From NCBI GenBank assembly GCA_030647115.1, contig JAUSJZ010000040.1, forward strand, positions 1 to 56,874: a stretch of 56,874 nt of DNA, in the 5' to 3' direction. The DNA comes from a bacterium. GTDB lineage: Bacteria; Patescibacteriota; UBA1384; CAILIB01; JAUSJZ01. Shown here piece after piece: positions 1,178 to 56,874 of the stretch. Every line of letters begins with the position of its first letter. Position 1 is the first letter of the stretch. The translations under genes were made by a program, and so were the position numbers. The notes beneath the pieces were generated by a model. It saw only the letters and a list, made by a program, of their open reading frames with translations, searched no databases and was not told the origin of the DNA.

Positions 1178-1495
1178 CTAACCCAACCTTAGCAACAGCA
1201 AATAAGTTAACAGATCGACAACTATAGTGAGAACCAAAATATTTTTTATGAATGATCCTGTTGTTATTGGACGATGTGTTATCGTATACAAACCCTTAAC
1301 AAATATGGCACTCGCAATGATATTTAAGAAAACAGTAATGGAAAGAACCCACAGTACTGCTTCTGTCATCGAATCCCCTACCTTCGAATCAAATGATAAA
1401 AGAAAAAGCCCAGCGGTAAAGTACAAAACAAGCAAGTAGGCCAGCAAACCAACAGCCAACATCAGTGAACCCATACAGCTAATTTTTTTATTCAT
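1178..1495 (-). CDS. Small hypothetical membrane protein, three helices
   Basis: 105 residues with no recognised family. Three hydrophobic segments are visible (about 10-33, 47-68 and 84-103). A purine-rich AAGGG lies about 10 bases before the ATG. The gene is more AT-rich than its neighbours. It follows the next membrane protein by 26 bases in the same direction and may be the last gene of the heat-shock transcription unit. Function unknown. Confidence 0.6.
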   Translation of the reverse strand: MNKKISCMGSLMLAVGLLAYLLVLYFTAGLFLLSFDSKVGDSMTEAVLWVLSITVFLNIIASAIFVKGLYTITHRPITTGSFIKNILVLTIVVDLLTYLLLLRLG

Positions 1496-1521
1496 TCGAT
1501 ATATTACCCTTACTTTTTAAA

Positions 1522-2022
1522 CTAATACTCGTCTTTGGCGTGCAGCGAGGAGTAAAGAATCAAAATAACGGGCAACAGAATTAAGAGGTTGTGATAGCGT
1601 CCCAAATATTCGGCGATAACGGCCCGATTGCCCAACAGCTGCTTCTGTTCGTCGTTCATAAAAGTGACGACAGATGACAGCACAAAGGCGATGGTGAAAA
1701 AGGCGTGGCCCAACGTCTCAAACTCGGGTATTCGTTTGCGTTTGGATGACGGTATCAAAGCCGTCAGTAACAGCCACAAGATGACCAGCAGACACGATTT
1801 CACCGCAAATTCGGAGACCGATAGCGAGAAGGAGAAGCCAAAGACCGCCTGTTTGCCCGTTAATAAACCAAATAAATTAGGCCCCCAGGTGATGCTAACC
1901 AGATAAGCCGTGTAAGCCGCCAACAGAGCGCTCATGACCCGACTACGTAAGATCACGAAGGCGAAGGCGAGCCAGAGTACCACGAGAATTACCACAATAA
2001 TATCCCAACTAGGTAGGGTCAT
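1522..2022 (-). CDS. Hypothetical multi-helix membrane protein
   Basis: 166 residues with about five hydrophobic segments (near 7-25, 28-50, 66-88, 103-122 and 145-160) and a short basic loop SSKRKR near 91-96. AAGG sits just before the ATG and could serve as a ribosome site. It lies 45 bases after dnaJ on the same strand with no clear terminator between, so cotranscription is possible. No family recognised. Confidence 0.65.
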   Translation of the reverse strand: MTLPSWDIIVVILVVLWLAFAFVILRSRVMSALLAAYTAYLVSITWGPNLFGLLTGKQAVFGFSFSLSVSEFAVKSCLLVILWLLLTALIPSSKRKRIPEFETLGHAFFTIAFVLSSVVTFMNDEQKQLLGNRAVIAEYLGRYHNLLILLPVILILYSSLHAKDEY

Positions 2023-2067
2023 TTACCTTATTATGAGGCCTCAAAGAGGGTTTGCGCAAGCAGCCAA

Positions 2068-2682
2068 CTAGCGACCGATGTTTTTTAACTGCTCCCAGAG
2101 CGCCCGCTCGGTACGACTCATACGGTTACCGGTGGGCATGACAATGCGCACTACAATTTGGAGATCACCCCGGCCGCGATTATGGGCTTTACCCCGGCCG
2201 CGAAAGGTAAAAGCTTGGCCGTCTTGAGTACCGGGTGGGATAGTTAAGACAATCTTCTCTTCGCCGGTGCGTAGCTCCATCTTATCGCCCATGACGGCTT
2301 GGGCGGGTGAAATTTGGACTTCGGCCTGGATATTGGAGAAAGCGGCCCCAAAGATGTCGTCAAAGATGTCGCCTAGCCCCCCACCGGCGGTACCACCAGT
2401 GAAATCGAAACCAAAGCCACCGGCGCGACCGGCACCACCACCGAAGCCTCCAAAACCACCTGCTCCGGCCGGGCCACCATTACCGACGTGCCCGAACTGA
2501 TCGAACTGGTCGCGTTTCTGCGGGTCAGACAATATTTGATAGGCTTGATTGATCTCCTGAAACTGCTTCGCATCGCCACCCTTATCGGGGTGGTGCTGGT
2601 GCGAGAGTTTACGAAAGGCGCGCTTGATTTCGTCGGTCGAAGCGTCTTTCGCTACTCCTAAAGTTTCGTAGGGGTTCGGCAT
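2068..2682 (-). CDS. dnaJ: Short DnaJ co-chaperone without zinc finger
   Basis: 204 residues from the ATG at 2680-2682; a TTG one codon upstream is the alternative. A J domain (about 4-66) carries the HPD motif (31-33) that stimulates the DnaK ATPase. A Gly/Phe-rich linker (about 66-110) and one C-terminal substrate-binding domain with the motif TIPPGTQDG follow. There is no cysteine, so the CxxCxGxG zinc domain of classical DnaJ (about 375 residues) is absent. The overall layout is like a shortened CbpA-type protein. It starts four bases after the dnaK stop and is clearly the last chaperone gene of the operon. Confidence 0.93.
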
Positions 2683-2685
2683 CAA

Positions 2686-4674
2686 TTACTCTTTTGGTTC
2701 GTCTTTTTTCGGTTCCTCTGGTTTGGTTGGTTCATCGGCTTTTTCACTATCAGCGCCAGCTTCAGCTGGTTTTTCGCCCGCTTGGCTCTCGCCGTCTTTG
2801 TTGTCGCCGTCTTTGCTTTCGTCAGCTTTATCGGCGTCTGCTTTATCACCCTCGGCCTGCTTCTCTTCGTAGAGGTGTTGACCGGCTTTTGATAACGCTT
2901 CGGACAGCGCTTCGGTCTTGGCTTTAATCTCATCTAGGTTATCGGAGTTCTTGGCGTTCTGCAACGCACTGACCGCATCTTCAACCGCCCGCACGTCTTC
3001 AGGCTTCAGTTTCTCTTTGTTCTCTTTGAGGGTCTTCTCGGCCGTGTGGATTAAACTCTCGGCCATATTTTTAGCTTCGACTGACTCGCGCTTGCTCTTG
3101 TCTTCATCGGCGTGTTGGGCAGCATCGGCGCGCATCCGTTCAATCTCTTCGGTTGAGAGACCACTGGAACCCTGAATAGTGATCTTCTGCTCTTTATTGG
3201 TGGCCTTGTCGGTAGCGGTGACGTGTAAGATGCCGTCGGCATCGATATCAAAAGTTACCTCTACTTGAGGGACACCGCGCGGAGCCGGCGGGATACCGTC
3301 GAGTACAAACTGGCCGAGACTGCGGTTATCGCTCGACATCTCACGCTCACCCTGTAAAACGCGAATCTCAACCTGCGGTTGATTATCAGAAGCCGTCGAG
3401 AAGATCTGGGAGTGCTTGGTCGGAATAGTAGTATTGGCTTCAATTAATTTAGCCATCACACCGCCGAGCGTTTCAATACCCAACGAGAGCGGCGTTACAT
3501 CGAGCAACAGTACGTCTTTGACATCACCGGCGAGCACACCCGCTTGAATGGCGGCCCCTAAAGCGACCGCTTCATCGGGGTTGACGCTCTTATTCGGCTC
3601 TTTGCCGAAAAACTCTTTGACTTTGGCCTGTACCAGTGGCATGCGAGTCTGACCGCCGACCAGAATAATTTCGTTGATGTCTTTGGCTTCTAGTTTGGCC
3701 GCTTTGATGGCGGCGCGGCAAGGGGTAATAGTGCGTTCAACCAGAGCGTCGGTCAGTTTCTCAAATTCGGCTCGGGTTACTTTCATAACCAAGTGCTTGG
3801 GTCCTTCGGCGTCGGCCGTGATAAAGGGCAGGTTAATCTCGGTCTCGAGTGAGGAGCTTAACTCGACCTTGGCTTTTTCGGCCGCCTCTTTGATACGCTG
3901 CACGGCATCGGGCTGTTTGGTTAAATCCAAACCTTCATGTTTTTTAAATTCGGCGAGAATGTGATCCATCAAAACCTGGTCAAAGTCATCGCCACCCAAA
4001 TGGGTGTCGCCGTTGGTGGATAACACCTCAAAGCTGGAGCCCTCTTCGCCGGCGCCGATATCCAAAATAGTGATGTCAAAAGTACCGCCACCTAAGTCGT
4101 AGACGGCCACTTTTTCTTCTTTTTTGCGCTCCAAACCATAGGCCAGAGCGGCCGCGGTCGGCTCGTTGATGATGCGCTTAACCTCTAAACCGGCAATCTT
4201 ACCGGCATCTTTGGTACTCTGGCGCTGGCTGTCGTTGAAGTAGGCCGGCACGGTGATAACGGCTTCGGTCACCTTTTCACCGAGGTAGGCTTCGGCATCG
4301 GCCTTTAATTTACCCAAGATGAAAGCGGAGATCTCTTCGGGGCTGTAGTTTTTGTCGCCCATTTTGACCTCAATGGCCCCGTTTTTGCCTTCAGAAGTGG
4401 TGTAAGGGACGCGCTTAAAATCTTGCTGGGACTCTTCGTCTTTGAACTTACGGCCGATGAAACGCTTGACGGACGAGACGGTGTTTTGGGAGTTGGTCAC
4501 GGCCTGGCGTTTGGCAATCTGACCGACGACGCGCTCACCGTTTTTATTGACCGCCACAATTGAGGGGCAGGTATTAGCCCCTTCGGCGGTGGGGATAACT
4601 TTAGCGGTGCCGCCTTCCATAACGGCGACGACGGAGTTGGTTGTTCCTAGATCGATTCCAATTATTTTGCTCAT
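2686..4674 (-). CDS. dnaK: Molecular chaperone DnaK (Hsp70)
   Basis: 662 residues of full-length Hsp70. The nucleotide-binding domain shows IDLGTTNS (7-14), [12 protein letters not shown] (141-152) and [10 protein letters not shown] (191-200). The hydrophobic linker reads [11 protein letters not shown] beta-sandwich substrate domain and a helical lid follow. The tail from about 605 is an unusually long Lys/Asp/Glu/Pro-rich low-complexity stretch ending in DEPKE. DnaK binds exposed hydrophobic peptides in the cytoplasm in ATP-driven cycles with DnaJ and GrpE. The leader between it and the upstream gene contains no G and no Shine-Dalgarno sequence. Confidence 0.98.
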
Positions 4675-18739: not shown

Positions 18740-20074
18740 ATGTCCAAAAAGATTCTGCTTATAAGCAACGATGTGGTGGGGGAGACGATGGCCGGCCCGG
18801 GTATTCGTTATACCGAACTGGCTCGTGAGCTGGGTAAAGAACATCAGGTCTTGTTGGCCGCTCCGGCTCCTTCTACTACCCCCGACCCCGATATAAAGCT
18901 CATCACTTACGCCCACGGCGACTGGTCTTCGTTAGTACCTCAAGTCAGCCGTTCGGAGGTCATCGTCGCTCAATCACTGCACCCGACGCTACTGAAAGCG
19001 GTGCGTGGCAGTGGAGCGCGTTACATCGCCGATTTATACGACCCCATTGTGTTAGAGAATTTGGAGGCTCAAAAAGTGCTCGATTTAAACGTGCAGTCGG
19101 CTCACAACCGGTTCTTTCTCTCTATCGCTAACGCCCAACTGGCCTTAGCCGACCATATCTTATGTGCTTCTGACCGGCAACGTGATTACTGGCTCGGTAA
19201 TCTCACCGCTCTGGGTCGTCTGACACCCGACCTCTACCGCGACGACCCTTCGCTGACTTCGCTCATCTCACTGCTGCCTTTCGGTTACGCCAATCAGAAC
19301 CCCAAAATCACTGCCCCCGATGCTTTAGAACTGTTTATCCCTCATTTTAACCCCAAAAAAGACCACGTCATTATCTGGGGCGGCGGCGTCTGGAACTGGT
19401 TCGACCCGCTGACTTTAATTAAGGCCATTCACCAAATTGGCAAAAAGAGAAATGACATCAAGTTGTTGTTTTTAGGTACCAAACATCCCAACCCGCATAC
19501 TCCCGAGATGAAGATGATCACCAAAGCCCACGCCCTGGCCGAGGAGTTACGTCTGAAAGATAGTCTGGTGTTCTTTAACGAAGGCTGGGTACCTTACGAT
19601 CAGTTGGCCAATTTTCTGGCGCCCGCTTCGATTGGGGCCTCGCTCCATTTCGATCACGCCGAAACGAGAATGTCCTTTCGAACCCGAATCTTGAGTTACA
19701 TCTGGGCCGGTCTGCCCATTTTGGCGACCCGCGGTGATGCTTTAAGCGATTTTGTGGAACGGGAAGGTCTAGGTCTGACCGTCGATTATCAAGATGAAGT
19801 CGGAGTGCAGAAAGCGATCGTTCAGTTAGTGGATGATGCCGATTTACGACGCAGCATCAAAGAGAATATGGCTCGGGTCTGGCCCATCTTCACCTGGGAT
19901 CGGCTCATCAAACCACTCTCGGCCCGCATTGAACAAGATGCCTTTGCCAACCAGCGGGTAAACCAGTACGATTACTGGCGCTTAGTCAGCCAGTATTATT
20001 TGGCCGGGGCCAATAAGGTACGCTCTACTAAAGGTCTGGGCGGGATAATTGGTAAGCTGAAGCGTAAGCCATGA
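18740..20074 (+). CDS. GT4-like glycosyltransferase
   Basis: 444 residues. The N-terminal half begins KILLISNDVVGETMAGPGIR, the nucleotide-fold and acceptor-loop pattern of GT-B enzymes. The C-terminal half contains FFNEGWVPYDQLANFL and an EREGLGL region in place of the usual EX7E motif. It begins exactly after the flippase stop and its own stop overlaps the next start (ATGA), so the three genes are coupled. Probably adds a sugar to the lipid-linked unit; the specificity is unknown. Confidence 0.88.
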   Translation: MSKKILLISNDVVGETMAGPGIRYTELARELGKEHQVLLAAPAPSTTPDPDIKLITYAHGDWSSLVPQVSRSEVIVAQSLHPTLLKAVRGSGARYIADLYDPIVLENLEAQKVLDLNVQSAHNRFFLSIANAQLALADHILCASDRQRDYWLGNLTALGRLTPDLYRDDPSLTSLISLLPFGYANQNPKITAPDALELFIPHFNPKKDHVIIWGGGVWNWFDPLTLIKAIHQIGKKRNDIKLLFLGTKHPNPHTPEMKMITKAHALAEELRLKDSLVFFNEGWVPYDQLANFLAPASIGASLHFDHAETRMSFRTRILSYIWAGLPILATRGDALSDFVEREGLGLTVDYQDEVGVQKAIVQLVDDADLRRSIKENMARVWPIFTWDRLIKPLSARIEQDAFANQRVNQYDYWRLVSQYYLAGANKVRSTKGLGGIIGKLKRKP

Positions 20075-20916
20075 GTAAACAGGTAGTACCGGTGGTTTCA
20101 ATCATTATTGTCAACTACAAAACGGCCAAACTGACCAGTGACGCCGTTAATAGCCTATTAACCGATACCTCCCTCTCTATCCACGGCGCCGAAGGGCGAA
20201 CCCCCATCGAAATTATCGTCATTGATAACGCCTCGGCCGACGGTTCAGCCGCCAAATTGGAACAAGATTTTGGTGATCGCATCACGCTACTTACGACCGA
20301 GCGAAACCTCGGTTTTGGCCCAGCCAATAATTTGGGTGCTACCCAGGCTAAGGGCCTGTATCTCTTCTTCTTGAATAGCGACACGCTGGAGCTGCACGGT
20401 GCCGTCACCACCTTGGTCGCTTTCTTAGACCGTCACCCGGGGTACGGTGTGGTCGGGCCGAAAGTACTCTTGCCAGATAAAGAGACCATTCAGCCCGCCA
20501 GCTTTGGTCGGTTCCCCACTCTCACTCGTACCCTAAGACGCACCAGCGCTGTCAAAAAACCCCAACTCGATCTGCGCTTTGTCTGCACCGACACCGACTG
20601 GGTAACCGGTGCGGCCCTCATGATCACCGCCGCCGTTTTCTGGAACACGGGCGGATTTGATCAGCGTTACTTTATGTACTTTGAAGATCAAGATGTCTGT
20701 GCCAACGTTATCAAGATGGGGGCAAAAATAGCCGTCGTACACGATGCGGCCATCGTTCATTTCGGTGGTCAGAGTTTACCCAATGGTAAGAAAAAGTATG
20801 AATATTACGATCACAGCCAAGAACAGTTCTTCCTCAAACACTACGGCTGGCTAAAGACCGGACTGATGGTCTGCTTACGTTTCCCTTGGAAAATTTGGCG
20901 CTCTCTAGCGCGTTAA
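20071..20916 (+). CDS. GT2 glycosyltransferase, WbbL (rhamnosyltransferase)-like
   Basis: 281 residues. GT-A features are visible: VSIIIVNYKT at the N-terminus, VIDNASADGS, NLGFGPANNLG, and the metal motif LNSDT near 105. Later come VTGAALMI, GGFDQRYFMYFEDQDVC and HFGGQS. This pattern is typical of WbbL-type enzymes that add rhamnose or a similar sugar to a membrane-bound acceptor. It is the last gene of the flippase operon, converging on the next cluster. Confidence 0.9.
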   Translation: MSKQVVPVVSIIIVNYKTAKLTSDAVNSLLTDTSLSIHGAEGRTPIEIIVIDNASADGSAAKLEQDFGDRITLLTTERNLGFGPANNLGATQAKGLYLFFLNSDTLELHGAVTTLVAFLDRHPGYGVVGPKVLLPDKETIQPASFGRFPTLTRTLRRTSAVKKPQLDLRFVCTDTDWVTGAALMITAAVFWNTGGFDQRYFMYFEDQDVCANVIKMGAKIAVVHDAAIVHFGGQSLPNGKKKYEYYDHSQEQFFLKHYGWLKTGLMVCLRFPWKIWRSLAR

Positions 20917-20947
20917 GCAGTCAAGATAACCGTAAAGATACGGGTAC

Positions 20948-23599
20948 TTATAACCTTTCTTTATTTTTATGGCGCCAGGCAAAGTGGCAGAGTACCAGCA
21001 AATAACCCAAAGCGATTAATTGCCAGCCAGTATAACGAACCTGGGGCTGAAAGACTAGATCGGCTTCAGTAGTGCCGGCGGGTAACTGCCAGGCCATACC
21101 CAGCCCATTAACCGGCACGGGTCGCAGCCGCTTACTACCGTCATTTAACACCCAGTCATCATCGTAAGCCATGCGAAAGATTAACCAGCGCGGGGCGGCC
21201 ACATTGGCTTTAACACTGTAGTCACTGGCTGATTTCTTCGTAAAGACAATATAATCGGCCGCTGTTTTTACCGGCTCGACAATAGTAGCACTAATAGCCG
21301 GTACTGGCTCATGGGGCAAGACGAGTGCTTGGGCTAACCCGGTCGCTCCGTCACCTCTAATAGTTAATACCCCCTCATCAGCATTAGTTGGGGGTAAGGT
21401 TAGTTTCTGCCACCGCCACTCGCCATCAACGTCGTTGCTATCGGTTTTAATAACCTGCTCAAATTGGCCGTAATTCACGGTCACCGTTCTGGCGGTTAGT
21501 CCAAACCAGAGCTTAAGATACAGGGGTGATGCGGTCAATTTCGCCGGTAGGACAACCGATACGGTCCCAGCCGAGGCGCCATTTTGAGTAAAAAGATAAG
21601 GCTCTTTGGTGTAGGCTAAGCTCGAAGCCACCCACCAGGAGCCGCTCGGGCGGACCCAACCAGTCGCAACCGATGCCGCTGGAGTGAAGTTCAGCTGCGA
21701 TAATACGTTTAACTCCTGATTGTTGGACGCCAGTCTATCATCTTGCTCACCAATATAAGGTAGAGACTCAACTTTTGCTCTATCACTTAGTGTCAAATCT
21801 TCTAAATAAAAGACGGCATCCCCGTTGGCTCGAGCTAGCGTGCGCCAGTCATAGGCCGCCGTCACCGGGTTGTCGGCCAAACTGATAAGTGACGGGGTAT
21901 TTTTCACCGCGAAACGCTCGACTCCGGGTAACGTAGTGACCGACACCACCTGTGGCTGGTAACTCAATAATTCATGGTAATTAACGTTATACCAACGATC
22001 GGCCAACAGCGGTTGATTACGAGGGATAGCAAACAGGTCGGGAAATTCCGATTCTAAATCAACTCGAATAAAAATGTTATTACCGGCTACCGCCTGCATC
22101 AGACCGGCTAAATAAGGATCTTTAGCGTAGAGACTCATGACTAAAGCACTTCTGAAGGAGACACTGGGCGACGGCAGATCTAGCACCGACGCTTCGGCCG
22201 GTATCTGGGAGCGGTTGGTCGAGAGCGCGTAAACATCGGCATTGGTCGCTCCGGGCGACTGGTCGTCTTTGAATTTGATAAAACCCAAAGGTGGTAAAAA
22301 GAGCGAGCGGGTAGTGCGGTTAATTTCGGGTTCGGCTGAAGCCGTCAGCAGACGGTAGCTGTCGGGAATAGTGGCCGGCCCCATAAAGTGAGACCACCCT
22401 TTTTGCCAATAAGGTGCAGCCAACCCAATGACCAGCAGTACGCTCGCTAACACGGGTAACGACCGACGGTTGGTTTTACTCCACCAATAGTTTATGGTCA
22501 CTGCAGCTAGCCAAGAGAGACTAAGGGTAATTAAAAATGACCAGTGGTAGACCTCACGGAATAGATTGGTGAATGGCAAATTGAGATAGATCCACCTAAA
22601 GATATTACCCGCCGGTTCGGCCGGACCGAGCGCCATCAACCAAGCCAATGCCAAAATGAAACTAAACAGTCGTACCTCGCGGCGACGGTTGGCTAAGGCC
22701 GGTGCCATAATTGCCAGTAAGACCACTCCAAAACTACCACCGACGAACCACTTACTCTTGAGCAAGAGGTCAAAGAAACTAAAAGTAATGTGATGGTCGG
22801 CGCCAATGAGCGTCCTAATGAGACTATGCGGTAATGAAGCTATGGTAGCGTAAGAGCTACCCAAATTATTGATGTTCGCCGCCACGATCACTCCATTGCG
22901 CAGCACCACACTCAACCACGGCAATTGAACTAGAGCGGCTGACGCGATCATGAGCAAGATGAGACCAAAACCTCGTCTGAAGTAGTTAATGTTTGGAGCC
23001 GTTACTAAATCTACCAGCAGAATAATCAAGAGCATGACGGCGAATTGGGGCTGGGCGCTGATAAGGACAAACAGTACGGGCATGAAATAGCCCCACCAGA
23101 CGACCCGTCGTTGTTCAACGGTGATGAACCAAGCCCGCAAGAACCACGGTGCCAGCGCAATGGCAATTAAATAGAAGATGAATCCCACCACGACCCTAAT
23201 AAAAATGAGGGGTGAGATGACATATATAATACCACCGATGACGGCCGGGAAGAGCGCCAGACCCCGGTTCTTTAAGAGCCAGGTCATACCGACTCCACCA
23301 ACCACAATGGTACCCAATACAATCAGTTTTAGGGTCAGCAACACGGGCATAGTAGTCACTAGACCGAAACCGGAGATCAGCAACAGGGGTATCCAAGCCA
23401 TATTGATACCGACCGCCTGACCCAGAAAGAAGTCGTTCCAGGCGGTAGTGGCATCGTGCCAGGTCTTGGTCCAATCAAATAAGGCAAACCCCCAGTCATA
23501 TTTTAAATTCAAATTGGCACTGGTCAGTAAGGGCCAACAGACAACTAGGCCGATGAGCAGAAAAAGCAACCAAATTAACCAGATCTTACTCCTGTTCAT
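20948..23599 (-). CDS. Large AftD/YfhO-like membrane protein (883 residues)
   Basis: Starting at the ATG 23597-23599 (a start 15 bases upstream is possible). About 11-12 membrane helices in the first 400 residues are followed by a large extracytoplasmic part and a last helix near the C-terminus. The segment NLFREVYHWSFLITL corresponds to the FRDPAKFF motif of the two neighbouring paralogues. That arrangement resembles the membrane arabinosyltransferase AftD and YfhO families (GT-C fold), which use polyprenyl-phosphate sugars. Activity is inferred. It is the last gene of a seven-gene operon and overlaps the preceding small gene by 14 bases. Confidence 0.75.
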   Translation of the reverse strand: MNRSKIWLIWLLFLLIGLVVCWPLLTSANLNLKYDWGFALFDWTKTWHDATTAWNDFFLGQAVGINMAWIPLLLISGFGLVTTMPVLLTLKLIVLGTIVVGGVGMTWLLKNRGLALFPAVIGGIIYVISPLIFIRVVVGFIFYLIAIALAPWFLRAWFITVEQRRVVWWGYFMPVLFVLISAQPQFAVMLLIILLVDLVTAPNINYFRRGFGLILLMIASAALVQLPWLSVVLRNGVIVAANINNLGSSYATIASLPHSLIRTLIGADHHITFSFFDLLLKSKWFVGGSFGVVLLAIMAPALANRRREVRLFSFILALAWLMALGPAEPAGNIFRWIYLNLPFTNLFREVYHWSFLITLSLSWLAAVTINYWWSKTNRRSLPVLASVLLVIGLAAPYWQKGWSHFMGPATIPDSYRLLTASAEPEINRTTRSLFLPPLGFIKFKDDQSPGATNADVYALSTNRSQIPAEASVLDLPSPSVSFRSALVMSLYAKDPYLAGLMQAVAGNNIFIRVDLESEFPDLFAIPRNQPLLADRWYNVNYHELLSYQPQVVSVTTLPGVERFAVKNTPSLISLADNPVTAAYDWRTLARANGDAVFYLEDLTLSDRAKVESLPYIGEQDDRLASNNQELNVLSQLNFTPAASVATGWVRPSGSWWVASSLAYTKEPYLFTQNGASAGTVSVVLPAKLTASPLYLKLWFGLTARTVTVNYGQFEQVIKTDSNDVDGEWRWQKLTLPPTNADEGVLTIRGDGATGLAQALVLPHEPVPAISATIVEPVKTAADYIVFTKKSASDYSVKANVAAPRWLIFRMAYDDDWVLNDGSKRLRPVPVNGLGMAWQLPAGTTEADLVFQPQVRYTGWQLIALGYLLVLCHFAWRHKNKERL

Positions 23600-23876
23600 A
23601 ACCGAGTATCCCAATTAAAGAGGTACTGATGGTCAGCAACAGTAACAGGTTAGCAAAGGGCCACAGCCACCGCAACCCGACACTACTTTGGAAAAGGAGT
23701 ATTACTAAAATAACCAGAGTGATAGCCACCAACAGCCACCGTACATAAGGGCGCGTCGCCTTAAACCAAAAAGAGAGCTGACTGATAACCGTATAACTAA
23801 CCAACAAAGGAACCGAGAAGGTGAGCCCCAGCGAGACGGCGGTAATTAATAACCAGACGATTGTTTTAGGTATCAC
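23586..23876 (-). CDS. Small membrane protein, 96 residues
   Basis: Three hydrophobic segments (about 6-30, 44-66 and 71-90), with basic residues between the first two. No family recognised. It overlaps its neighbours at both ends (11 bases with the 119-residue gene, 14 with the large one), which supports it being a real, coupled gene. It could be an accessory subunit of the large membrane proteins, but this is only context. Confidence 0.65.
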   Translation of the reverse strand: MIPKTIVWLLITAVSLGLTFSVPLLVSYTVISQLSFWFKATRPYVRWLLVAITLVILVILLFQSSVGLRWLWPFANLLLLLTISTSLIGILGYEQE

Positions 23877-24225
23877 GTCGCTGCTTGATGAAAGCTACTA
23901 CTAAGGCCGTCGTAATGAAGAACAGCACCCAGGTACCTAGATCTTGAGTCAGACCACTGCCCGGCCGTAACCAGGTTACTAACATGAGGGCGACTGTTCC
24001 TAAAAAGCCAGCCGCCATCGAAAATTCAAACGGTATCAGCAAACCAAGCGAGGCCACAAACCAGTAGATTAAAAACTGACGTTCGGGACTAGTCAACTGA
24101 CCGGTTAACTTTGAGAAGACAACCTCACCAAAATAGACCAGAATAAAAGCTAACCCCAACCACTGCCACCGTAAGGGTCGTTGGCGCATGTCATGCTCCA
24201 GTTGTGACTTTAGTCGGCCAATCAT
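23866..24225 (-). CDS. Small membrane protein, 119 residues
   Basis: A charged N-terminus (about 1-20) is followed by four hydrophobic segments (near 21-38, 50-65, 68-86 and 95-112) and a basic tail. No family recognised. Its ATG overlaps the stop of the 941-residue gene as ATGA, and its end overlaps the next small gene. Like that one it sits between two of the large AftD/YfhO-like proteins. Confidence 0.65.
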   Translation of the reverse strand: MIGRLKSQLEHDMRQRPLRWQWLGLAFILVYFGEVVFSKLTGQLTSPERQFLIYWFVASLGLLIPFEFSMAAGFLGTVALMLVTWLRPGSGLTQDLGTWVLFFITTALVVAFIKQRRDT

Positions 24226-27047
24226 CTTTTAAATCGTTGTCGTTTCTTTTTGAGACCAATAAATAACACCACAATTAAGCTTGACAGCGAGATTAACAGA
24301 CCCCAGTGGAAAGGCGCTTTATTGCCAAATTCAATTCTAAATTGAGTGGCTTGGGTATTAGCCGGCAGCAACCAGGCATTAGCAAAACCGTTCACCTCTA
24401 AATGTTCTAACGGGGTGACCCCTTTAATACGCCAGCCTTTGTTAAAAGCTTGGTTCAGCACCAGGTAATAGGGTTGAGCAGCGGCGGCCACCGTACCTTC
24501 ATACAAACCCGGTTTAAGCCGCTCAAAGTTGATGGTTGGTGGTGTACTGGTGGACTCATTGAGCGAGTTGGTGAGAGCAATATATTCGGGTACGGTGTTA
24601 AACAGTTGTTGTACCGTCAAATCGGCCAGCGCCACTTTAGATGCGACTACCTCACCATCCACCATAGTCGGGTTAGCTAACAGCAGTAACTCGCCCGGCT
24701 GTTCGGAATTAACTTCGACCAAAATGGTCAGCTCTTGCCAGGCACTGTTTTTAGGAAGACTGGCACCGGTCAATTCACCGTCATCATGCAAAAACTTGGC
24801 CTCCAGCCCAATACCGGACTCGGTTCGCGTCAGCGCTTTTACCCGATAGAGACCGGGTTTAATAAGACCTAGTTTGACACTCATACAACCAGGGGCTTCT
24901 TCACTGGAGTAGACCATTTGGACATTGGTTTTACCCCCATTTTCATCGGCCTGATAAAAACTGTCCGGAAATATCAAACGGCCGCGGGCATCTTGGCAGG
25001 GCACCCACTTGGTCTCTTCAAATTTGCCCGAATAAGCCAAATTAGGTGGATTACCAAAATTTAAGGAGAGACTATGTGACCCCACGGTCAGGTTTTGCAC
25101 GTCCTTAGTGTCGATAATTTGGTTATCAATGCGCAACAAATAGGCGGCTAATTCCGGTTGAAATTGTAACGTGCCTTTAAAGTTGGCGGGGTTCTGCCAC
25201 TGCCACACGGCGGTATCACCGTTTAACTGTAATTCTTTCAGATTTAGACTGATGCCCCGCAGTCGCTCTGAAGTAGAAGATTGCCGTTGAGCTCCGTCGG
25301 CCCGATTACTCAACAAGAGCAAATCTTCAGCGGTGAGAGCCGGGTTGAATTTGGCCACCAGTTCTTTGTCTAACGCCACCGTCTGTTTGGCGGTGTAGAG
25401 CTCATCTTTAGCTCCTTCGTTGGCAAAAACCCTAATGGCCGGGGCACCACTATCAACTTCTTTCAGCCAGGTTTTACCGGCCACCAGTTGTAAGAAATAA
25501 TCAGCCAGGCCGTAGTGACGGTATATTTCATTCTCGGTATCAAGGGGTAAACCGACCCATTTGACGCCGGCCTGATCTAACAACCAATCGGCATAAGGGT
25601 GATTGAGCAGATTTTCCGGTAAGGCATCGGCCCCTTTAAACGGGCTCCATTCACCTTCGGCCACGTCTTTCAGACTAATGGCCGGATGCGTTTGGGTATA
25701 GGGAATATACCGTTGCATTACCGGTACCCAGAGGCTCCGGCTGAAACCGGGGTCATTCGCCAGAAATGGTTGAAAAGCCAGATATTCTGCCGGCACCTGA
25801 TGTGGTACAAAGGTACCGTGTCTGGTTTGAGACCAGAACGGATAAAGCGGTAGCCACAACATCATTAAAATTAGACCAGCTCCCAATATTCGACGTTGCA
25901 ACGGTAGTCTATCAACCAAGTAGAGCGCCCCCAAACCAGCCGCTGGAGCCAACCCCAGTAACAACAGAGCAAAAAATTTAGCCGGGTCACGAAATAAGAT
26001 AAACCCCGGCACGTGGGTAAAGAGCCAGGCATAGGTACCGGCGAAGGGCTCGTTACCACCCTTGAGCAGAAAGACACCCATTACTATGAGCGTAAATAGC
26101 AATAAACTAAACCGGTTACGCCGCCACTGCCACAGAGATACTAAAGCCAATAAAAGAGTCAGGTAGAACAACGGTTGAATGGGGTTGAGTATCCCTTCTG
26201 ACCAGGGCCACCAGACGTGGTTAGCCGCTAACCCGTGCGCAACGGTGGCGTAGCTTAGGGAACCGATCCAACCAACATCGGTGTAATTGGTGGGCACCCC
26301 TGCCGCCCCGGCCGTACCCGTCAGTATGGGCCAGAGCCAGTAGGCCGAAAGGAGAGCAGCCAACACCACTACCGCCACCAGCAATACGGCTAGCTTCCCC
26401 AGACGTCGTTCTCTCTGGACAGTAATGGTGAGTTGATAAATAAGCGTCAGCAGACCGGCTAAAAGAGTGATGGCTAACATACGCAGGTCATAGATAGCCT
26501 GAACGGCGATAGTCAGACTCAACCACGCGACGGTTGAGCGTTGGCGTTGCGCTACCAGCTTACTTACCAGATAGAGAGTGAGCGGTGCCAACGCATAACT
26601 GACCGCCAGCGTCATTTGGCCCCCCTGAACGGTGTTGAGAGAGAAAGAATTAAGGGTATAAAGTAGAGCGGTAATAAATGCCCCCAAACGTCGCTTCGTA
26701 ATTAGGTAGCCCCACTGCCAGGCACCAACCCAAGCAAAGACAATAAACGGTACGAACCAGAAGAGACGCGCGGTAATGGAAGGACTAACCTGAAAATTTT
26801 GCCACAGCAGCCCGTACCACCAGTGGATGGCGTTGTGAGCAGCACTGATACTTAAGGGTGAACCGAAGTTGCGCGCCGCATCGAAGATTAACAGATGCTG
26901 ATAATATTCAACCGCGCGGGAAGGTAAGATATGCCACCAGTCACCGTAACTTAAGAAGCCGGGAATAAACCAGGGCCAAAAGACCAGACCTAAAACAACA
27001 ACCGACAACAAGGCCCACCACCAAGCTTTTATCTTTACCGGAAACAT
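24222..27047 (-). CDS. Large AftD/YfhO-like membrane protein (941 residues)
   Basis: An N-terminal helix is followed by the outside loop LSYGDWWHI, then about 11 further helices to residue 400 with GFILFRDPAKFFALLLLGLA. The Asp in the first outside loop is in the place of the catalytic Asp of GT-C enzymes. Residues about 410-910 are extracytoplasmic, with carbohydrate-binding-like beta-rich stretches, and a final helix precedes a basic tail (KKKRQRFKR). It probably transfers sugar from a lipid donor on the outer face. It lies 9 bases after the 965-residue paralogue. Confidence 0.78.
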   Translation of the reverse strand: MFPVKIKAWWWALLSVVVLGLVFWPWFIPGFLSYGDWWHILPSRAVEYYQHLLIFDAARNFGSPLSISAAHNAIHWWYGLLWQNFQVSPSITARLFWFVPFIVFAWVGAWQWGYLITKRRLGAFITALLYTLNSFSLNTVQGGQMTLAVSYALAPLTLYLVSKLVAQRQRSTVAWLSLTIAVQAIYDLRMLAITLLAGLLTLIYQLTITVQRERRLGKLAVLLVAVVVLAALLSAYWLWPILTGTAGAAGVPTNYTDVGWIGSLSYATVAHGLAANHVWWPWSEGILNPIQPLFYLTLLLALVSLWQWRRNRFSLLLFTLIVMGVFLLKGGNEPFAGTYAWLFTHVPGFILFRDPAKFFALLLLGLAPAAGLGALYLVDRLPLQRRILGAGLILMMLWLPLYPFWSQTRHGTFVPHQVPAEYLAFQPFLANDPGFSRSLWVPVMQRYIPYTQTHPAISLKDVAEGEWSPFKGADALPENLLNHPYADWLLDQAGVKWVGLPLDTENEIYRHYGLADYFLQLVAGKTWLKEVDSGAPAIRVFANEGAKDELYTAKQTVALDKELVAKFNPALTAEDLLLLSNRADGAQRQSSTSERLRGISLNLKELQLNGDTAVWQWQNPANFKGTLQFQPELAAYLLRIDNQIIDTKDVQNLTVGSHSLSLNFGNPPNLAYSGKFEETKWVPCQDARGRLIFPDSFYQADENGGKTNVQMVYSSEEAPGCMSVKLGLIKPGLYRVKALTRTESGIGLEAKFLHDDGELTGASLPKNSAWQELTILVEVNSEQPGELLLLANPTMVDGEVVASKVALADLTVQQLFNTVPEYIALTNSLNESTSTPPTINFERLKPGLYEGTVAAAAQPYYLVLNQAFNKGWRIKGVTPLEHLEVNGFANAWLLPANTQATQFRIEFGNKAPFHWGLLISLSSLIVVLFIGLKKKRQRFKR

Positions 27048-27056
27048 AATTCCATT

Positions 27057-29954
27057 CTAGCCCTTTGTTGCCTTTAAATCACGCCACCACGATCTGGCCA
27101 GATAGGCTAAGCTCCCTAAAATACTGATCAGTGACAACGCACTGAAGAAGTAGATCTGGTTGGCCGGTACATAGACTAGAGCAAAGTCACCATTTAAACC
27201 GGCCGGTACCCACCAACCATTCAAGCCGAAGTTAGAATCAAAATGATCGGCGATTATCTTACCGGTACCCAGATGTTGTAACCGCCAATTACTATCAAAA
27301 ACGGCACTATAGTTAACTACCCCACCACTATTATTCTCGGAGACGCTAAAGGTGCGCCGCGCCTCATTGTGGCGTTGGTAATTGCCGACCTTAAAACTGA
27401 CCGCATTATCATTATAGTTACTGCTTTGTAAGACCACGTTGGTTAAGTACTGATAATCATCTGACAAGTGAAAAAGCGGCAATTGTTGCACCAGCGCATT
27501 AGAGAAACCACTATCCCCTTCAACTTTCAAACTGATGCGAAAACGATCGTATTGGCGATCTGTCCGATAAACAGTGAAGACATCAGCTTGGGTAAGAGGA
27601 ACCTGATCACCGTAGCGCGGTTCGTATTCACCCGTCAGAGAGACTCCGGAACCGGTCACCTTACCCTTGAAATGGGCGATGAAGAGACCCTGCGATTCAC
27701 TGTCTGGCAAGGTACGTTGTAGACAGGCTCGAATGCCATACTTATCGGTTATACCGGTAACCCGGTCGAAGAGAGCGCGGTCACTCTCTAAGCGACCGAC
27801 GCAGCTGAACCAAGACTTACTGTTCTTACCCAAGTCGGGTACCACCGAAGCAGACTCGTCCGCCGTAGTCAGATCAATGCTTAAGACGTGCTCTCCGGTC
27901 GTAAGCTGACTGACATCATATTGGTTGTAGGTTTTAGTACCGAATTGCTTGGTGTCGCTCACCGTTAGCTGATTTTGGTCTAAACGATAAGCCAAATTAC
28001 CGTCCGGTTTCGGTAAATAAAGACGATAGTCACCGTCTTTAGGTACGGTTAACGGCCAGCTCACTACTCCTTGGGAGATCTTACTTAAATCGTGTTTGGG
28101 AGCTAATAAAATCAAACTGGCCTTATCAACGTAGTTACTGTAATTCTCTTGCACCATATTAATCATCACCACCGCATTTTGACGAACATCGGGTTTAATA
28201 AGATCGACAAACCCGTCAATATTAGTGCTCTCGGTGATTATCAACCCCGCCGAACCGTAAACCGGACCCGGGCTGTTCTGATACTCGAAGATAGTAGTCA
28301 CTGTCCCCGCCTCGTCGGTTATGGTACGCTCACTGCTAAAAAGCTTGGTATTGCGCCAGTCATTCAAATATTGCGCCTGACTCTTGTTGGTATATTGATA
28401 TATCTCATTGGCCGGGTCACCGGGGATAGCCACTAAAGAGACATTGTCGGAATCTAACAGAAAGGGTAATAATTTATTACTGGCCAGCTCCTCCACTCCC
28501 CGTCGCATCAGGGGAAAATTTTTCCAGTTGTTATATTGCAACGTGTTGGCATCAAGGGTTGATAGCTGGTTAGTAAAGAGAGTATTACGATAAAGGCGGG
28601 GTACCCATAGTATTCGGCTTTCAGTGGCATCATCGGCAATCTGTTCGCGGAGAACTTGACTGACAGCCGTAAACCGTTGCTGTTTTATGAAAGTACCGTC
28701 AATGCGTTGCTGCCATAAATCAAGGTGTCCAAAGATAAAGATCGCCGTAAAAAAAGCAATACTAACACTCACTGCCAGCTGCCAATGCCGACGACTGATG
28801 TATTTAAAGGCCCGTTGCCACCCGAGGGCAAAGAGCAGGCTATAACAGAAGGCAATGAGGGTAAAAAACTTGGCTGGGTCACGAAAGACCTTAAAACCCG
28901 GCAGATGATCAAACAAGTAAGCGTAAGTAATACCATAGGGTGCATTGATACCCTTGGCCAGAAAGATGCCGACTGTGGCTAAGACAATTAATGATAATAC
29001 CAGGCGGCGTTCTTTTTTAACGAACAGGCTGAAGAGAATAAAGATTAAGATCAGACCATACAACATGTTCGGGTCGTATCTAGTACCGGTCACTACGGTC
29101 GGCCACCAGAGATGGTGCAAAAACAGAGCGTGTTGAAGAGTCGAATAGCTCAAGGAGTAAACCCAACCGACATTGTCGTAACCGGCCAAAGTTATACCAC
29201 CGGCACTACTTTTGACCCCGAACATACCGTAAAGCCAGTAGAGATTTTGCAGTAAAAATAGGCCGATTGTTAGCAGTAAGCTCTTAATGAACTGCTTACT
29301 CGATGGCCGAGTAATCGGCCAGCGGGCCAGTAACCAGACCAACATTATAGGTACCGTCAAAATAAAAAAACGAGGGTCATACAATATCTGTAATTGGATA
29401 ATCAACGTCAGGACAATCACCCGTGATAGTTTCGGTTTGGCCATCAATCGATCTTGGGCCAGAATTATCCACGGTATCAGACCGTAGCCGACAGCCCCCA
29501 ACATTTGGCCGCCGGTAAAAATGATTAGAGCATAACTATTGAACAGATATAAGGTCGCGGCCAGAAAAGCAGCTAAACGTGATTGCCATAAATGTTTAGC
29601 CAAGCACCACATACCGGTGAGGGTAACAAGCAGACTGAAACCAAAATAGAAGATAATACTTAAGGAACTGAAATCTAACTTGGTCAACAGATAAACCAGA
29701 CCGATGACGAACCGCAGGGGGGTGCTGTGCAGTGTCAGCCCCAAATAACTGGTAATGCCGTAACTCTCTTCTAACAGTTGCGGCCAGAAGGCATATTCGT
29801 TGACCCGTTCCGGGTTGATGTAAAACCAGTCGCCGGCCGAAATTACCCCCGGGCCAAACCACCGCCCAAAACCAACCGCTACCATTAACAGCAAAACCAA
29901 CTGGTAGCGATAGGTAAACAAAAAACGACCCCACTTTTGGAGAGTTTTCATCAC
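27057..29954 (-). CDS. Large AftD/YfhO-like membrane protein (965 residues)
   Basis: Same plan as the next gene downstream: a first helix (about 13-30), the outside loop ISAGDWFYI, about 11 helices, then GFKVFRDPAKFFTLIAF near 360. A roughly 500-residue extracytoplasmic region and a C-terminal helix follow. The shared GDW loop and FRDPAKFF motif mark the two as paralogues. A GT-C glycosyltransferase role is inferred from topology and surroundings. It starts at the base after the stop of the upstream GT4 gene. Confidence 0.78.
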   Translation of the reverse strand: MMKTLQKWGRFLFTYRYQLVLLLMVAVGFGRWFGPGVISAGDWFYINPERVNEYAFWPQLLEESYGITSYLGLTLHSTPLRFVIGLVYLLTKLDFSSLSIIFYFGFSLLVTLTGMWCLAKHLWQSRLAAFLAATLYLFNSYALIIFTGGQMLGAVGYGLIPWIILAQDRLMAKPKLSRVIVLTLIIQLQILYDPRFFILTVPIMLVWLLARWPITRPSSKQFIKSLLLTIGLFLLQNLYWLYGMFGVKSSAGGITLAGYDNVGWVYSLSYSTLQHALFLHHLWWPTVVTGTRYDPNMLYGLILIFILFSLFVKKERRLVLSLIVLATVGIFLAKGINAPYGITYAYLFDHLPGFKVFRDPAKFFTLIAFCYSLLFALGWQRAFKYISRRHWQLAVSVSIAFFTAIFIFGHLDLWQQRIDGTFIKQQRFTAVSQVLREQIADDATESRILWVPRLYRNTLFTNQLSTLDANTLQYNNWKNFPLMRRGVEELASNKLLPFLLDSDNVSLVAIPGDPANEIYQYTNKSQAQYLNDWRNTKLFSSERTITDEAGTVTTIFEYQNSPGPVYGSAGLIITESTNIDGFVDLIKPDVRQNAVVMINMVQENYSNYVDKASLILLAPKHDLSKISQGVVSWPLTVPKDGDYRLYLPKPDGNLAYRLDQNQLTVSDTKQFGTKTYNQYDVSQLTTGEHVLSIDLTTADESASVVPDLGKNSKSWFSCVGRLESDRALFDRVTGITDKYGIRACLQRTLPDSESQGLFIAHFKGKVTGSGVSLTGEYEPRYGDQVPLTQADVFTVYRTDRQYDRFRISLKVEGDSGFSNALVQQLPLFHLSDDYQYLTNVVLQSSNYNDNAVSFKVGNYQRHNEARRTFSVSENNSGGVVNYSAVFDSNWRLQHLGTGKIIADHFDSNFGLNGWWVPAGLNGDFALVYVPANQIYFFSALSLISILGSLAYLARSWWRDLKATKG

Positions 29955-31088
29955 CTAAAAAAAGGTTTTCCTCATCTTGTCTACCGAGGCGTCAATCGAA
30001 TATTTTTCCCCCTGTAGTCGCAACCGTTTCTGCCAGCCCAGAAAAACTTGATGATTTTTCTGCCAGAGATTATAGACGTCAGCCAACCTGGCGGCGATTG
30101 TCTTTGAATCAAGCGGGTCAATGAACCACCCCGTCTTACCTTCGCTAATCATCAAAACCGGACCTTCGGCTTTAGAGGCCAATACCGGCGCACCGGTCGC
30201 CATGGCTTCCACAATCACCAGACCGAAAGGCTCTTGGCGCGATGGCAGAAAAAAGACGTCACACGATTGAAAATACGGTACCGGTTGGGTGGTATAGCCG
30301 ACCAAATCGATCTGTTTGGGGTATTTCTCTTTCAGCTCTTTAAGATAATGCTCCATCGAGCCGGAACCGATAAAGCGAAAACAGACGTCTTCAGCCCCAC
30401 TCTTTTTCAAGAACCGGGCGATACCTTTAGCCGCTAGGTCGGGTGCTTTCTGCACCTCAAATCGCCCGGCAAAGAGAAAAGTTAATGTCTTCGGGTCGCG
30501 TTGGTCCGGTTTCGCTACGAATTTATCGACGTCGACCCCGCTCGGTATAAAATTAATATGCGGCAGTCGCCATTTTTTTAATTTCTGATATTCGCCGGGG
30601 TTAAGCGCCATAAAACCATCAAATGACGGCATGGTCAAGTAGCGCGAGATGGTAGCCACATACCAGTTATGCCAGCGATTCTCGTAAAACAAGGGGGCGT
30701 GGATACCGACGATTACCTTGGTACCAAAGCGGCGTTTAAGGCGTCTGATAAGTAAATCTTGACCGATAAAACCGAAGATAAAGTGCACCGCATCGGCCCA
30801 TTCAAAGGCCTCGGCCAAGACCTGTTCCGCTTGCTTATCGGGCACGCGAGCCGCCCCACCCCAAGCCGAACGGGTATGCACTTCGGTATAGCTAATCGAG
30901 CCTAACCGCTGGCGTACTTCAACCTCGGGCAAGTCGTTGTTGCCGAAGTCGCCGGTGATAATTTTGACCTCATAACCGGCTTTTTTTAATCTGGTAGTGA
31001 CATCGATATGCCAACGCTCACAGCCACCACCGTGCATGAGATGGACGGGGCTGTAAAAGAGTATTTTGTTGACTTTTCGTTCACTCAT
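29955..31088 (-). CDS. GT4-family glycosyltransferase
   Basis: 377 residues. GT-B landmarks are YSPVHLMHGGGCERWH near the N-terminus, FIPSGVDVDKF, LFAGRFEVQKAPDL and the donor-binding motif RQEPFGLVIVEAMATGAPV. It overlaps the upstream GT4 gene by 8 bases and abuts the 965-residue membrane protein. It probably adds a hexose to the lipid-linked glycan in the cytoplasm before the outer-face enzymes act. Confidence 0.93.
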   Translation of the reverse strand: MSERKVNKILFYSPVHLMHGGGCERWHIDVTTRLKKAGYEVKIITGDFGNNDLPEVEVRQRLGSISYTEVHTRSAWGGAARVPDKQAEQVLAEAFEWADAVHFIFGFIGQDLLIRRLKRRFGTKVIVGIHAPLFYENRWHNWYVATISRYLTMPSFDGFMALNPGEYQKLKKWRLPHINFIPSGVDVDKFVAKPDQRDPKTLTFLFAGRFEVQKAPDLAAKGIARFLKKSGAEDVCFRFIGSGSMEHYLKELKEKYPKQIDLVGYTTQPVPYFQSCDVFFLPSRQEPFGLVIVEAMATGAPVLASKAEGPVLMISEGKTGWFIDPLDSKTIAARLADVYNLWQKNHQVFLGWQKRLRLQGEKYSIDASVDKMRKTFF

Positions 31089-32298
31089 TATTTTTTTGTC
31101 GAATTAGCGACTGCCACTTTTGCTCGTACTGCGCGACGATCACAGACCAATCATACACTTTTTTAACCCGTTCCAAAGCGGAGTCTGACATCTGCTTAAT
31201 CTGTTTGGGCTCACGCAGCAATTTATCTAGAGCGGTTGCTAAACGTTCGACATCATCGACCGGGAAGGTATAACCGACCTCTTTGGTCACAATATCGATG
31301 ATGCCGCCGGTGGCGCTAGCGACAAGGGGCAAACCGGCCGCCATGGCCTCTAACAACGTCTGTCCAAACGGCTCCGCCCGCGTCGGTGAGACAAAGATAC
31401 CGGCTTCAGCGTAGTAACGACCCACTTTTTTATTATCCACAAACCCCCAAAACCGAACCTTGGACTCCAATTGCAATTCTCTGGCCAACTTTTTCAGGTT
31501 GTCTTCTTCAGGGCCATTACCGACCACCCAGAGACGCGCCCGAGGGTGAAAGCGGACGATCCTAGACCAGGCCGACAACAAGACATCGATACCCTTTCGT
31601 TTAATGAGATAACAGACCGCCAAGACAATCTGGTTATTGTGTTTGATGCCGGCGGGCGGAGAAGCATATTTAGAGATATCGATACCGGCCGGAACCACCG
31701 ACACCTTTGTTTTCGGCAGACTCTGACGGTAGTAAACCGCGGCCTCGGCCGTCACCGCAAAGAGATGATCGACGTGTTGCAGGGTGCGTCGGTACAAATT
31801 AGCCGCCGGTTGGCTAAGCAACCCAATTACGGGTCGGCTCAACTTTAAACGCCAATCGTCTGGTGTGCCGAGAGCGGTGGCCAGGTCAGCCTCTTCATCG
31901 GGTGGTTTCATGGCCGGCCCCATGGTAAAAGGGATATTTTTAAAAGACCCCTTGGCCGCCAACAGGTTCGGGGAGAGCGGGCTAATGGGAGCAAAATGGT
32001 GCACCACCTCAATGTCTTCGTCGGCAATTATTTTGGCCGCTAGTTTGGCTACCTGTCGGTAAAACTGGACCTTGCGCCAAATTTCGACCAGCGCGTTCGT
32101 CGTTCTAGCCTGACCAAAAATCGAAATGAGATGCACGTTGGGGTGGATTTGTCGGTCGTTCAGATCGGCCACGCCACAGATAGCCCAAACTTCATGGCCC
32201 CGCTCACCCAGCGCTTTTAAGGCGTAGTACGGCCAAGACGGCTCCGAACCGCGCTTATCGGAGACAAAGTAATGGGCTGGAGCAAAAAGAATTTTCAT
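31081..32298 (-). CDS. GT4-family glycosyltransferase, first gene of operon
   Basis: 405 residues. FAPAHYFVSDKRGSEPSWPYYAL at the N-terminus, VVPAGIDISKY, VCYLIKRKGIDVLL and TRAEPFGQTLLEAMAAGLPLV are the standard GT4 signatures. It is the first gene of the seven-gene operon that runs to 20948. A TATAGAAT box lies 3-5 bases before the ATG, so the message is probably leaderless or nearly so. Confidence 0.93.
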   Translation of the reverse strand: MKILFAPAHYFVSDKRGSEPSWPYYALKALGERGHEVWAICGVADLNDRQIHPNVHLISIFGQARTTNALVEIWRKVQFYRQVAKLAAKIIADEDIEVVHHFAPISPLSPNLLAAKGSFKNIPFTMGPAMKPPDEEADLATALGTPDDWRLKLSRPVIGLLSQPAANLYRRTLQHVDHLFAVTAEAAVYYRQSLPKTKVSVVPAGIDISKYASPPAGIKHNNQIVLAVCYLIKRKGIDVLLSAWSRIVRFHPRARLWVVGNGPEEDNLKKLARELQLESKVRFWGFVDNKKVGRYYAEAGIFVSPTRAEPFGQTLLEAMAAGLPLVASATGGIIDIVTKEVGYTFPVDDVERLATALDKLLREPKQIKQMSDSALERVKKVYDWSVIVAQYEQKWQSLIRQKNNE

Positions 32299-56272: not shown

Positions 56273-56362
56273 GGAGAGGTGCTGGAGTGGTTGATCAGGA
56301 TAGTCTCGAAAACTATTGGGGGCGTAAGCCCCTCGTGGGTTCAAATCCCACCCTCTCCGCCA
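56273..56362 (+). tRNA. tRNA-Ser (anticodon CGA)
   Basis: A 90-base class II tRNA. The acceptor stem is GGAGAGG/CCTCTCC, the anticodon stem ATAGT/ACTAT with loop CTCGAAA (anticodon CGA), followed by a long variable arm (GGGGGC...GCCCC) and the T arm GTGGG-TTCAAAT-CCCAC. The discriminator is G, and CCA is encoded at 56360-56362. It reads the TCG codon. Its 3' 22 bases are shared with the end of the serine recombinase gene on the other strand. Confidence 0.96.
56341..56362. mobile_element. Probable attachment-site core at tRNA-Ser 3' end
   Basis: The tRNA T-arm/acceptor end and the 3' end of the recombinase gene share these bases. Integrases that use tRNA genes typically recombine in the 3' end and restore the tRNA. 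The exact core cannot be set without the other end of the element, which lies beyond the right edge. Confidence 0.5.
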
Positions 56363-56874
56363 AACGTGACGATGGGTTTTTGTAAGTCCAATATTGCGCT
56401 ATAGAAAGGGCTTATTGGGGTGTTCGAATAACCATTTCGGCCATACGGCATACCAGAGGGGAATATCGAACACAACAAGACTCTAATCTGGTGGAGGGTG
56501 GACGTGGCAAAGGTCTCCGCCACGTTGTTAAGTTTTTCCTGGATGAAGTCTGTGATCTTCTCCAGATTGTATTTTGTTAACAGCTCATCATCTTTAGCAA
56601 TCTGAACCACTTTGATCTTATCTTCCAACAGTTTGTTCTGCTCCTTAAACATCTCATCGGTATATACTCCCGTGAGATTTTTCTCAATCAGTGCCTGTCG
56701 CAGCTCGTATAGGCTCTTTAACTCCTCATCGGCCTCCTCCCGTCTCTTCTGCAAATCAGCCACTCGCTGGTAGTACTTCCGGCGCAACCAGGTGACGAGC
56801 AGCTCCACGGTTTTTTCTGTAAAAGCGATACTGTGCAGAAGTTCGGTTGTCTCCACTGTTAAGTCCTTTCTCCC
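56341..56874 (-). CDS. Large serine recombinase, C-terminal part, cut by window edge
   Basis: 177 visible residues; the frame is open to the right edge, so a GTG at 56856 is not the true start. A long coiled coil (about residues 30-95 of the visible part, with YYQRVADLQKRREEADEELK) has the TGVYTDEMFKEQNKLLEDKI pattern seen between the zinc ribbon and the tail of large serine recombinases. The tail SIFPSGMPYGRNGYSNTPIS, then PFYSAIL, also fits that family. The catalytic domain and zinc ribbon would lie to the right. Its last six codons and stop are the complement of the tRNA-Ser 3' end. Confidence 0.75.
   Translation of the reverse strand, partial: GRKDLTVETTELLHSIAFTEKTVELLVTWLRRKYYQRVADLQKRREEADEELKSLYELRQALIEKNLTGVYTDEMFKEQNKLLEDKIKVVQIAKDDELLTKYNLEKITDFIQEKLNNVAETFATSTLHQIRVLLCSIFPSGMPYGRNGYSNTPISPFYSAILDLQKPIVTFGGEGGI

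Follow-up and report, generated by a model that had tools for sequence, protein, structure and literature searches.

Why does a protein-coding gene end antisense inside a tRNA gene at the right edge of the window, by which we mean the whole 56,874-nucleotide stretch analysed here, and what continues beyond that edge? A tRNA-Ser(CGA) gene, identified with ARAGORN, occupies positions 56273..56362 on the plus strand. On the minus strand a reading frame (56341..56874) stays open to the contig end and comprises the C-terminal 177 codons of a gene whose 5′ part lies beyond the contig. The encoded protein ends in ...VTFGGEGGI; the TGA stop codon is located in the tRNA T-loop, and the last 22 bp of the gene lie inside the tRNA gene, spanning its CCA end through to the T-loop. 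In the source genome (617 kb, 86% complete, 48 contigs) the window corresponds to contig C20, and the sole other tRNA present in the window is a tRNA-Lys(TTT) at 973-1048 on the minus strand.

Comparison of the 177 residues with Pfam gave no family above the cut-off, since the window holds only the part C-terminal to the zinc ribbon, and PHROG integrase family 95 was matched weakly (E 0.0096). Judged by homology the gene is a large serine recombinase, as a sequence-only reading of the locus had claimed, because the fragment is 52% identical over 168 amino acids (E 2e-55) to a nearly complete protein encoded on another contig of this genome, C47 (L004:4178-5770), that carries Resolvase, Recombinase (PF07508) and Zn_ribbon_recom (PF13408) domains. 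The fragment aligns to the C-terminal third of this protein, and the region corresponding to PF07508 and PF13408 lies past the contig end of the window. The resolvase catalytic domain is also outside the window and was found in the same-genome paralogue and in intact relatives, with S20 of the recombinase of a phage genome described below (L180) being invariant in 25 sequences. The missing N-terminal half was searched for elsewhere in the source genome and not found. Matches in the PDB are the TP901-1, A118 and SPbeta integrases, and the best relatives from cultured phages and plasmids, among the matches listed, are less than 30% identical. The C47 recombinase likewise ends antisense inside a tRNA gene, in this case tRNA-Ala(GGC). 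Just upstream of that tRNA, at 4040-4200 of the C47 locus, part of the tRNA-Ala 5′ end is duplicated and GC-rich repeats (gcggctccgcc) occur.

A protein-seeded search that was blind to tRNAs yielded 25 loci, mostly from Patescibacteria (23 genomes plus extra copies). Among 30 oriented recombinase genes, 29 adjoin the 3′ end of a tRNA or tmRNA gene and read into it; the remaining one (G017a) is at a contig edge with no recognisable tRNA adjoining. The overlap of tRNA and recombinase is thus real and not a matter of chance. The targets are tmRNA and tRNAs of 11 isotypes (Glu, Lys, Gly, Gln, Pro, Ser, Leu, Phe, His, Arg and Ala), and a parsimony count over 28 genes of the recombinase tree requires a minimum of 15 isotype changes, from which it follows that target switching is frequent. 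Among 380 surveyed genomes of the phylum, 29 contain a match at E <= 1e-60. Most of the distant members (30-37% identity) end in tRNA genes too, including those for Ile and Tyr. A sister family of Patescibacteria serine recombinases at about this distance (~30-37% identity; L126-L138 and L063) also runs antisense into tRNA 3′ ends; the in-gene attP proposed below is claimed for the main family and not for this sister family.

Within 10 kb, the tRNA end was not found again as a long direct repeat. This null result first suggested that there is no second end, or that the crossover is at the CCA, and both ideas were dropped when the ends emerged with larger flanks. Repeats of the acceptor tip followed by a common continuation, ATGCACTTTCnTTYGAACACCTTTT, occur 5-28 kb upstream of the recombinase ends; in 55 genomes the motif matched 25 times and its reversed control 0 times. 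Searching with a translated far-end profile added seven further cases, and far ends were located for 16 elements of 5.5-41 kb. For the window, contig C1 of the same genome reads TGGCGG-ACTGGATGCACTTTCATTCGAAC around base 955, i.e. it matches the window attL and the tRNA 3′ end at TGGCGGA and then continues into the conserved far-end sequence. This is probably the far end of the window element, a match in which TGGCGGA could be common to other tRNA-Ser genes. The sequence-only reading was therefore right in seeing a mobile element boundary at tRNA-Ser, in placing the element to the right of the window, of which the right edge is one end of the integrated element, and in expecting a second end. 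The element itself is unassembled, with the N-terminal half of the recombinase and the element middle missing.

To align the 16 attL/attR pairs, the TYGAAC motif itself served as the register, with coordinate 1 as the complement of tRNA A76; two or three of the far ends (G011, G026b and perhaps G020) are fossil joined ends and not true attR. Both ends agree at coordinates 3, 5 and 6 in 16/16 pairs and at 4 in 15/16, and agreement falls on both sides, which leaves coordinates 5-6, corresponding to tRNA nt 72-71, as the sole dinucleotide identical in all pairs. The shared block at the acceptor tip measures ~4-12 bp, a short core between attL and attR of the kind found with large serine recombinases; of the expected repeat of the tRNA 3′ end this short block is what exists, and the expectation of a long repeat would have failed. 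Left of coordinate 3 the attL and attR bases differ in G026a, G396, G025, G217 and G075, so the CCA end in attL comes from the element; the target tRNA genes of G026a and G396 apparently lack an encoded CCA. On this basis the crossover in the window is predicted at 56357..56358 (CC on the plus strand, GG on the minus strand; tRNA nt 71-72), a position that also fits the serine-integrase site geometry (PMC3783163). From the same att analysis, nt 1-71 of the tRNA are host DNA and nt 73-76 are predicted to be element-supplied. The attL, with an extent based on the geometry of characterised integrases, would cover 56338..56382, consisting of a host half-site at ~56338-56357 that includes the T-loop and an element half-site at ~56358-56382 that includes the codons for ...VTFG. 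It had been claimed that the attachment site provides both the tRNA 3′ end and the GGEGGI tail of the recombinase. The first part holds approximately for nt 73-76 (the CCA and the discriminator), which the element supplies along with the shared dinucleotide. The second does not: given the crossover position, the EGGI-stop codons (56341..56356, minus strand) would be host tRNA sequence added to the recombinase on integration, and the conserved C-terminus of the gene itself is found at the element's other end.

In attP the zinc-ribbon motif of the A118 integrase occupies half-site positions 16-24, and in attB positions 11-19, which amounts to a shift of 5 bp (PMC3783163). In our elements TYGAAC is found at coordinates 24-29 of the far end. 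In the tRNA it is complementary to the T-loop and is found at coordinates 19-24, so that the motif lies 5 bp farther out in the element, the same attP/attB offset as in A118, measured here from one half-site. With the centre at 5/6, the motif occupies half-site positions 19-24 in attP and 14-19 in attB, inside the published intervals, so that the core defined by sequence identity and the core defined by geometry coincide. Because TYGAAC displays this zinc-ribbon spacing, we propose that the recombinase probably reads the universal tRNA T-loop. In the window the motif is TTGAAC at 56339..56344 on the minus strand, the complement of the T-loop GTTCAA and the proposed zinc-ribbon contact in attB; the same motif is 5 bp farther out in the far end of the 16 elements. 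If the T-loop is what is read, the use of nearly every tRNA gene by a single enzyme family would be accounted for, and these integrases might be retargetable through two core bases.

When the recombinase 3′ end is joined to the far end, the reading frame continues for another 20-45 codons of a conserved helix, with the C-terminus ...FG-G/S-L/P-D/N-ALSFEHLLxWLxQLxxxYx-stop. A natural joined gene is present in a phage genome, IMG/VR contig IMGVR_UViG_3300033153_006387 (L180), which has identical direct terminal repeats of 114 bp and closes to a circle of 14,410 bp. The contig harbors terminase and helicase genes, and no tRNA was found in the part scanned. Its recombinase is 42% identical, and its reading frame aligns nearly gap-free across the tail. 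This phage genome is the smallest autonomous-looking carrier of the recombinase family. Fossil joined 3′ fragments occur in G011 and on contig C26 of G203. Since the joined frame stays open and a circular phage carries the joined gene, comparison of these sequences indicates that the integrase gene contains attP and that integration swaps the C-terminus for host tRNA codons.

The right edge of the window is thus best read, with a probability of roughly 0.8, as the attL of a Patescibacteria element whose serine recombinase has its attP within its own gene, recognises the T-loop and exchanges its tail upon integration. In the free circle the gene would span attP and encode a longer enzyme with a conserved amphipathic helix at its end (FE-H/P-LLxWLxxL-M/R-xxY), with recEnd-TTTGGNNN-..TGCACTTTC..TYGAAC expected at the junction of excised circles and recEnd-TTTGGCGG-ACTGGATGCACTTTC predicted for the window element. 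The full-length enzyme produced from the circle would recognise the nearly universal T-loop (TYGAAC on the opposite strand) with the zinc ribbon on one half-site, integrate at a tRNA that matches its core at nt 71-72, and exchange strands at the dinucleotide at the acceptor-stem tip, tRNA nt 72/71. A matching CCA end and discriminator in attP would restore the tRNA; the helix-coding piece would move to the far end (attR), and the truncated recombinase would become fused to antisense tRNA codons. The helix-less enzyme would probably favour stable residence: loss of the helix would alter activity, most likely locking the element in place for as long as neither a second copy nor an accessory factor intervenes. 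That the protein is a self-trimming integrase, of which the full-length form inserts in any core-matched tRNA or tmRNA gene and the helix-less form is switched off or works in another mode, thereby recording the integrated state, is a proposal to which we give even chances. In the predicted structure of the joined enzyme the tail helix is loosely placed (pLDDT ~35-56), which is too weak to define a docking site.

The same architecture could also operate with a neutral tail swap, in which both enzyme forms act alike and directionality follows from site geometry and an accessory factor alone. Ordinary serine integrases set direction by site geometry and an RDF (PMC3783163), and the replaced tails are free to vary in length and sequence. 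The factor might be encoded by the gene that immediately precedes that of the recombinase, for which a conserved protein of 100-140 amino acids is predicted in about 24 loci (L065-L084); it gave no convincing match in Pfam, and that it is a candidate directionality factor or regulator is a guess. The helix is, however, conserved across distant members including the phage and is therefore under selection, and we regard a neutral swap as possible but rather doubtful. A different view would be that the far end is conserved solely as an attP half-site, the open frame being a by-product and no longer protein being made. Its first 30 bp need conservation for binding under any model, and it is the TTYGAA motif itself that encodes Phe-Glu, but the open frame and the residue conservation run well past the half-site: over coordinates 32-64 the joined frame is open in 34/34 far ends, as compared to 1/34 and 11/34 for the other frames, codon position 2 is the least variable, and the E, W and L positions are conserved. 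Together with the intact joined gene of the circular phage genome, this makes the half-site view improbable. Classical tRNA restoration in the style of tyrosine integrases, with a long tRNA 3′-end copy in attP and GGEGGI as the element's own C-terminus, is the natural reading of the overlap and accounts for the tRNA-matching bases common to attL and attR (12 in G007), but it is very improbable given that in most elements a long copy of the tRNA end is absent from the 10-56 kb upstream, that the shared block is usually 4-9 bp and stays below 20 bp in most of the 16 elements, and that the codons after FG vary with the target tRNA while the conserved C-terminus is at the other end.

Like the A118 integrase, TP901-1 and SPbeta YokA, the Patescibacteria proteins combine Resolvase and Recombinase domains with a zinc ribbon and a coiled-coil; unlike these, the family has an in-gene attP and many tRNA and tmRNA targets. 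Integrases that disrupt their own gene, called suicidal, have been termed exclusively archaeal (PMC8371274). The archaeal SSV-type tyrosine integrases share with the tail-swapping recombinases an att site in the integrase gene and its disruption on integration, indicated here by the 34 far ends and the circular phage. In contrast to the archaeal enzymes, serine chemistry is used, the hosts are bacteria, and just the C-terminal tail is lost, with antisense tRNA codons in its place. Being Resolvase-type serine recombinases, the proteins work in a similar way to the suicidal integrases and are not members of that class. The logic of an integrase that cuts its own gene, known as an archaeal tyrosine-recombinase peculiarity, would thus recur in bacteria on the basis of an unrelated chemistry. 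Integration by serine recombinases at tRNA genes has been described as rare (PMC3218068). Mycobacterial AICEs (tRNA-Leu) and phage phiRSM1 (tRNA-Ser) also use a serine recombinase to integrate at a tRNA; each of these groups uses one tRNA, whereas the single family described here targets tmRNA as well as tRNAs of 11 isotypes, apparently via the T-loop. We found no report in the open-access literature of tRNA-site serine recombination or a self-disrupting integrase in Patescibacteria. The conserved ends provide a ready means of delimiting mobile elements in these bacteria.

An empty site in relatives had been suggested as a check; as judged from gene order, two loci lack the element. Genome G203 has a tRNA-Gln/tRNA-Glu(CTC) pair between flanking genes that enclose a 5.5-kb element in its congener G181, with the orientation of the pair differing between the two genomes. 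Conversely, G181 has a tRNA-Ser(GGA) between flanks that are split by a 15.7-kb element in G203, with 3.3 kb beside attR unmatched. Remnants without a recombinase were observed as well. One of 1.6 kb in the source genome (L109, contig C42, reverse complement ~1430-3098) has a matching tip at tRNA-Glu(TTC) and comprises the far end TTTTGGTAGCCCC, into which a palindrome of ~35 bp is inserted, a single cargo gene and then the tRNA; it is possibly a non-autonomous derivative. Another, of 3.2 kb (L176, contig C15 of G203, 20000-32000), is located at tRNA-Ser(CGA), the target tRNA of the window.

Some complete elements look like integrative conjugative elements. The element of G008, inserted at tmRNA, encodes a coupling ATPase, a T4SS pilin, PrgI, VirB4, an M23 peptidase and a type I restriction system, and thus has an integrase, a T4SS and a coupling protein within its att ends, a combination expected of such elements. 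T4SS loci with the same pilin, PrgI, VirB4, coupling ATPase and M23 peptidase have been described for Patescibacteria (PMC12102498); relaxases are mostly missing from them, which makes these conjugation-type secretion systems puzzling, and recombinase, integrase and tRNA are absent from the text of that paper. In contrast to those loci, the T4SS modules found here are situated between att ends and together with a Replic_Relax-like protein, which is recurrent in the elements and scores barely over the PF13814 cut-off (26.9 and 26.0 as compared to 25.3 bits). Homologues of the coupling ATPase are also encoded on contigs C18 and C28 of the source genome. Additionally, reverse transcriptases of the diversity-generating-retroelement type together with bAvd (Pfam RVT_1 and bAvd) recur in the elements of G016, G019, G075, G026 and G017.
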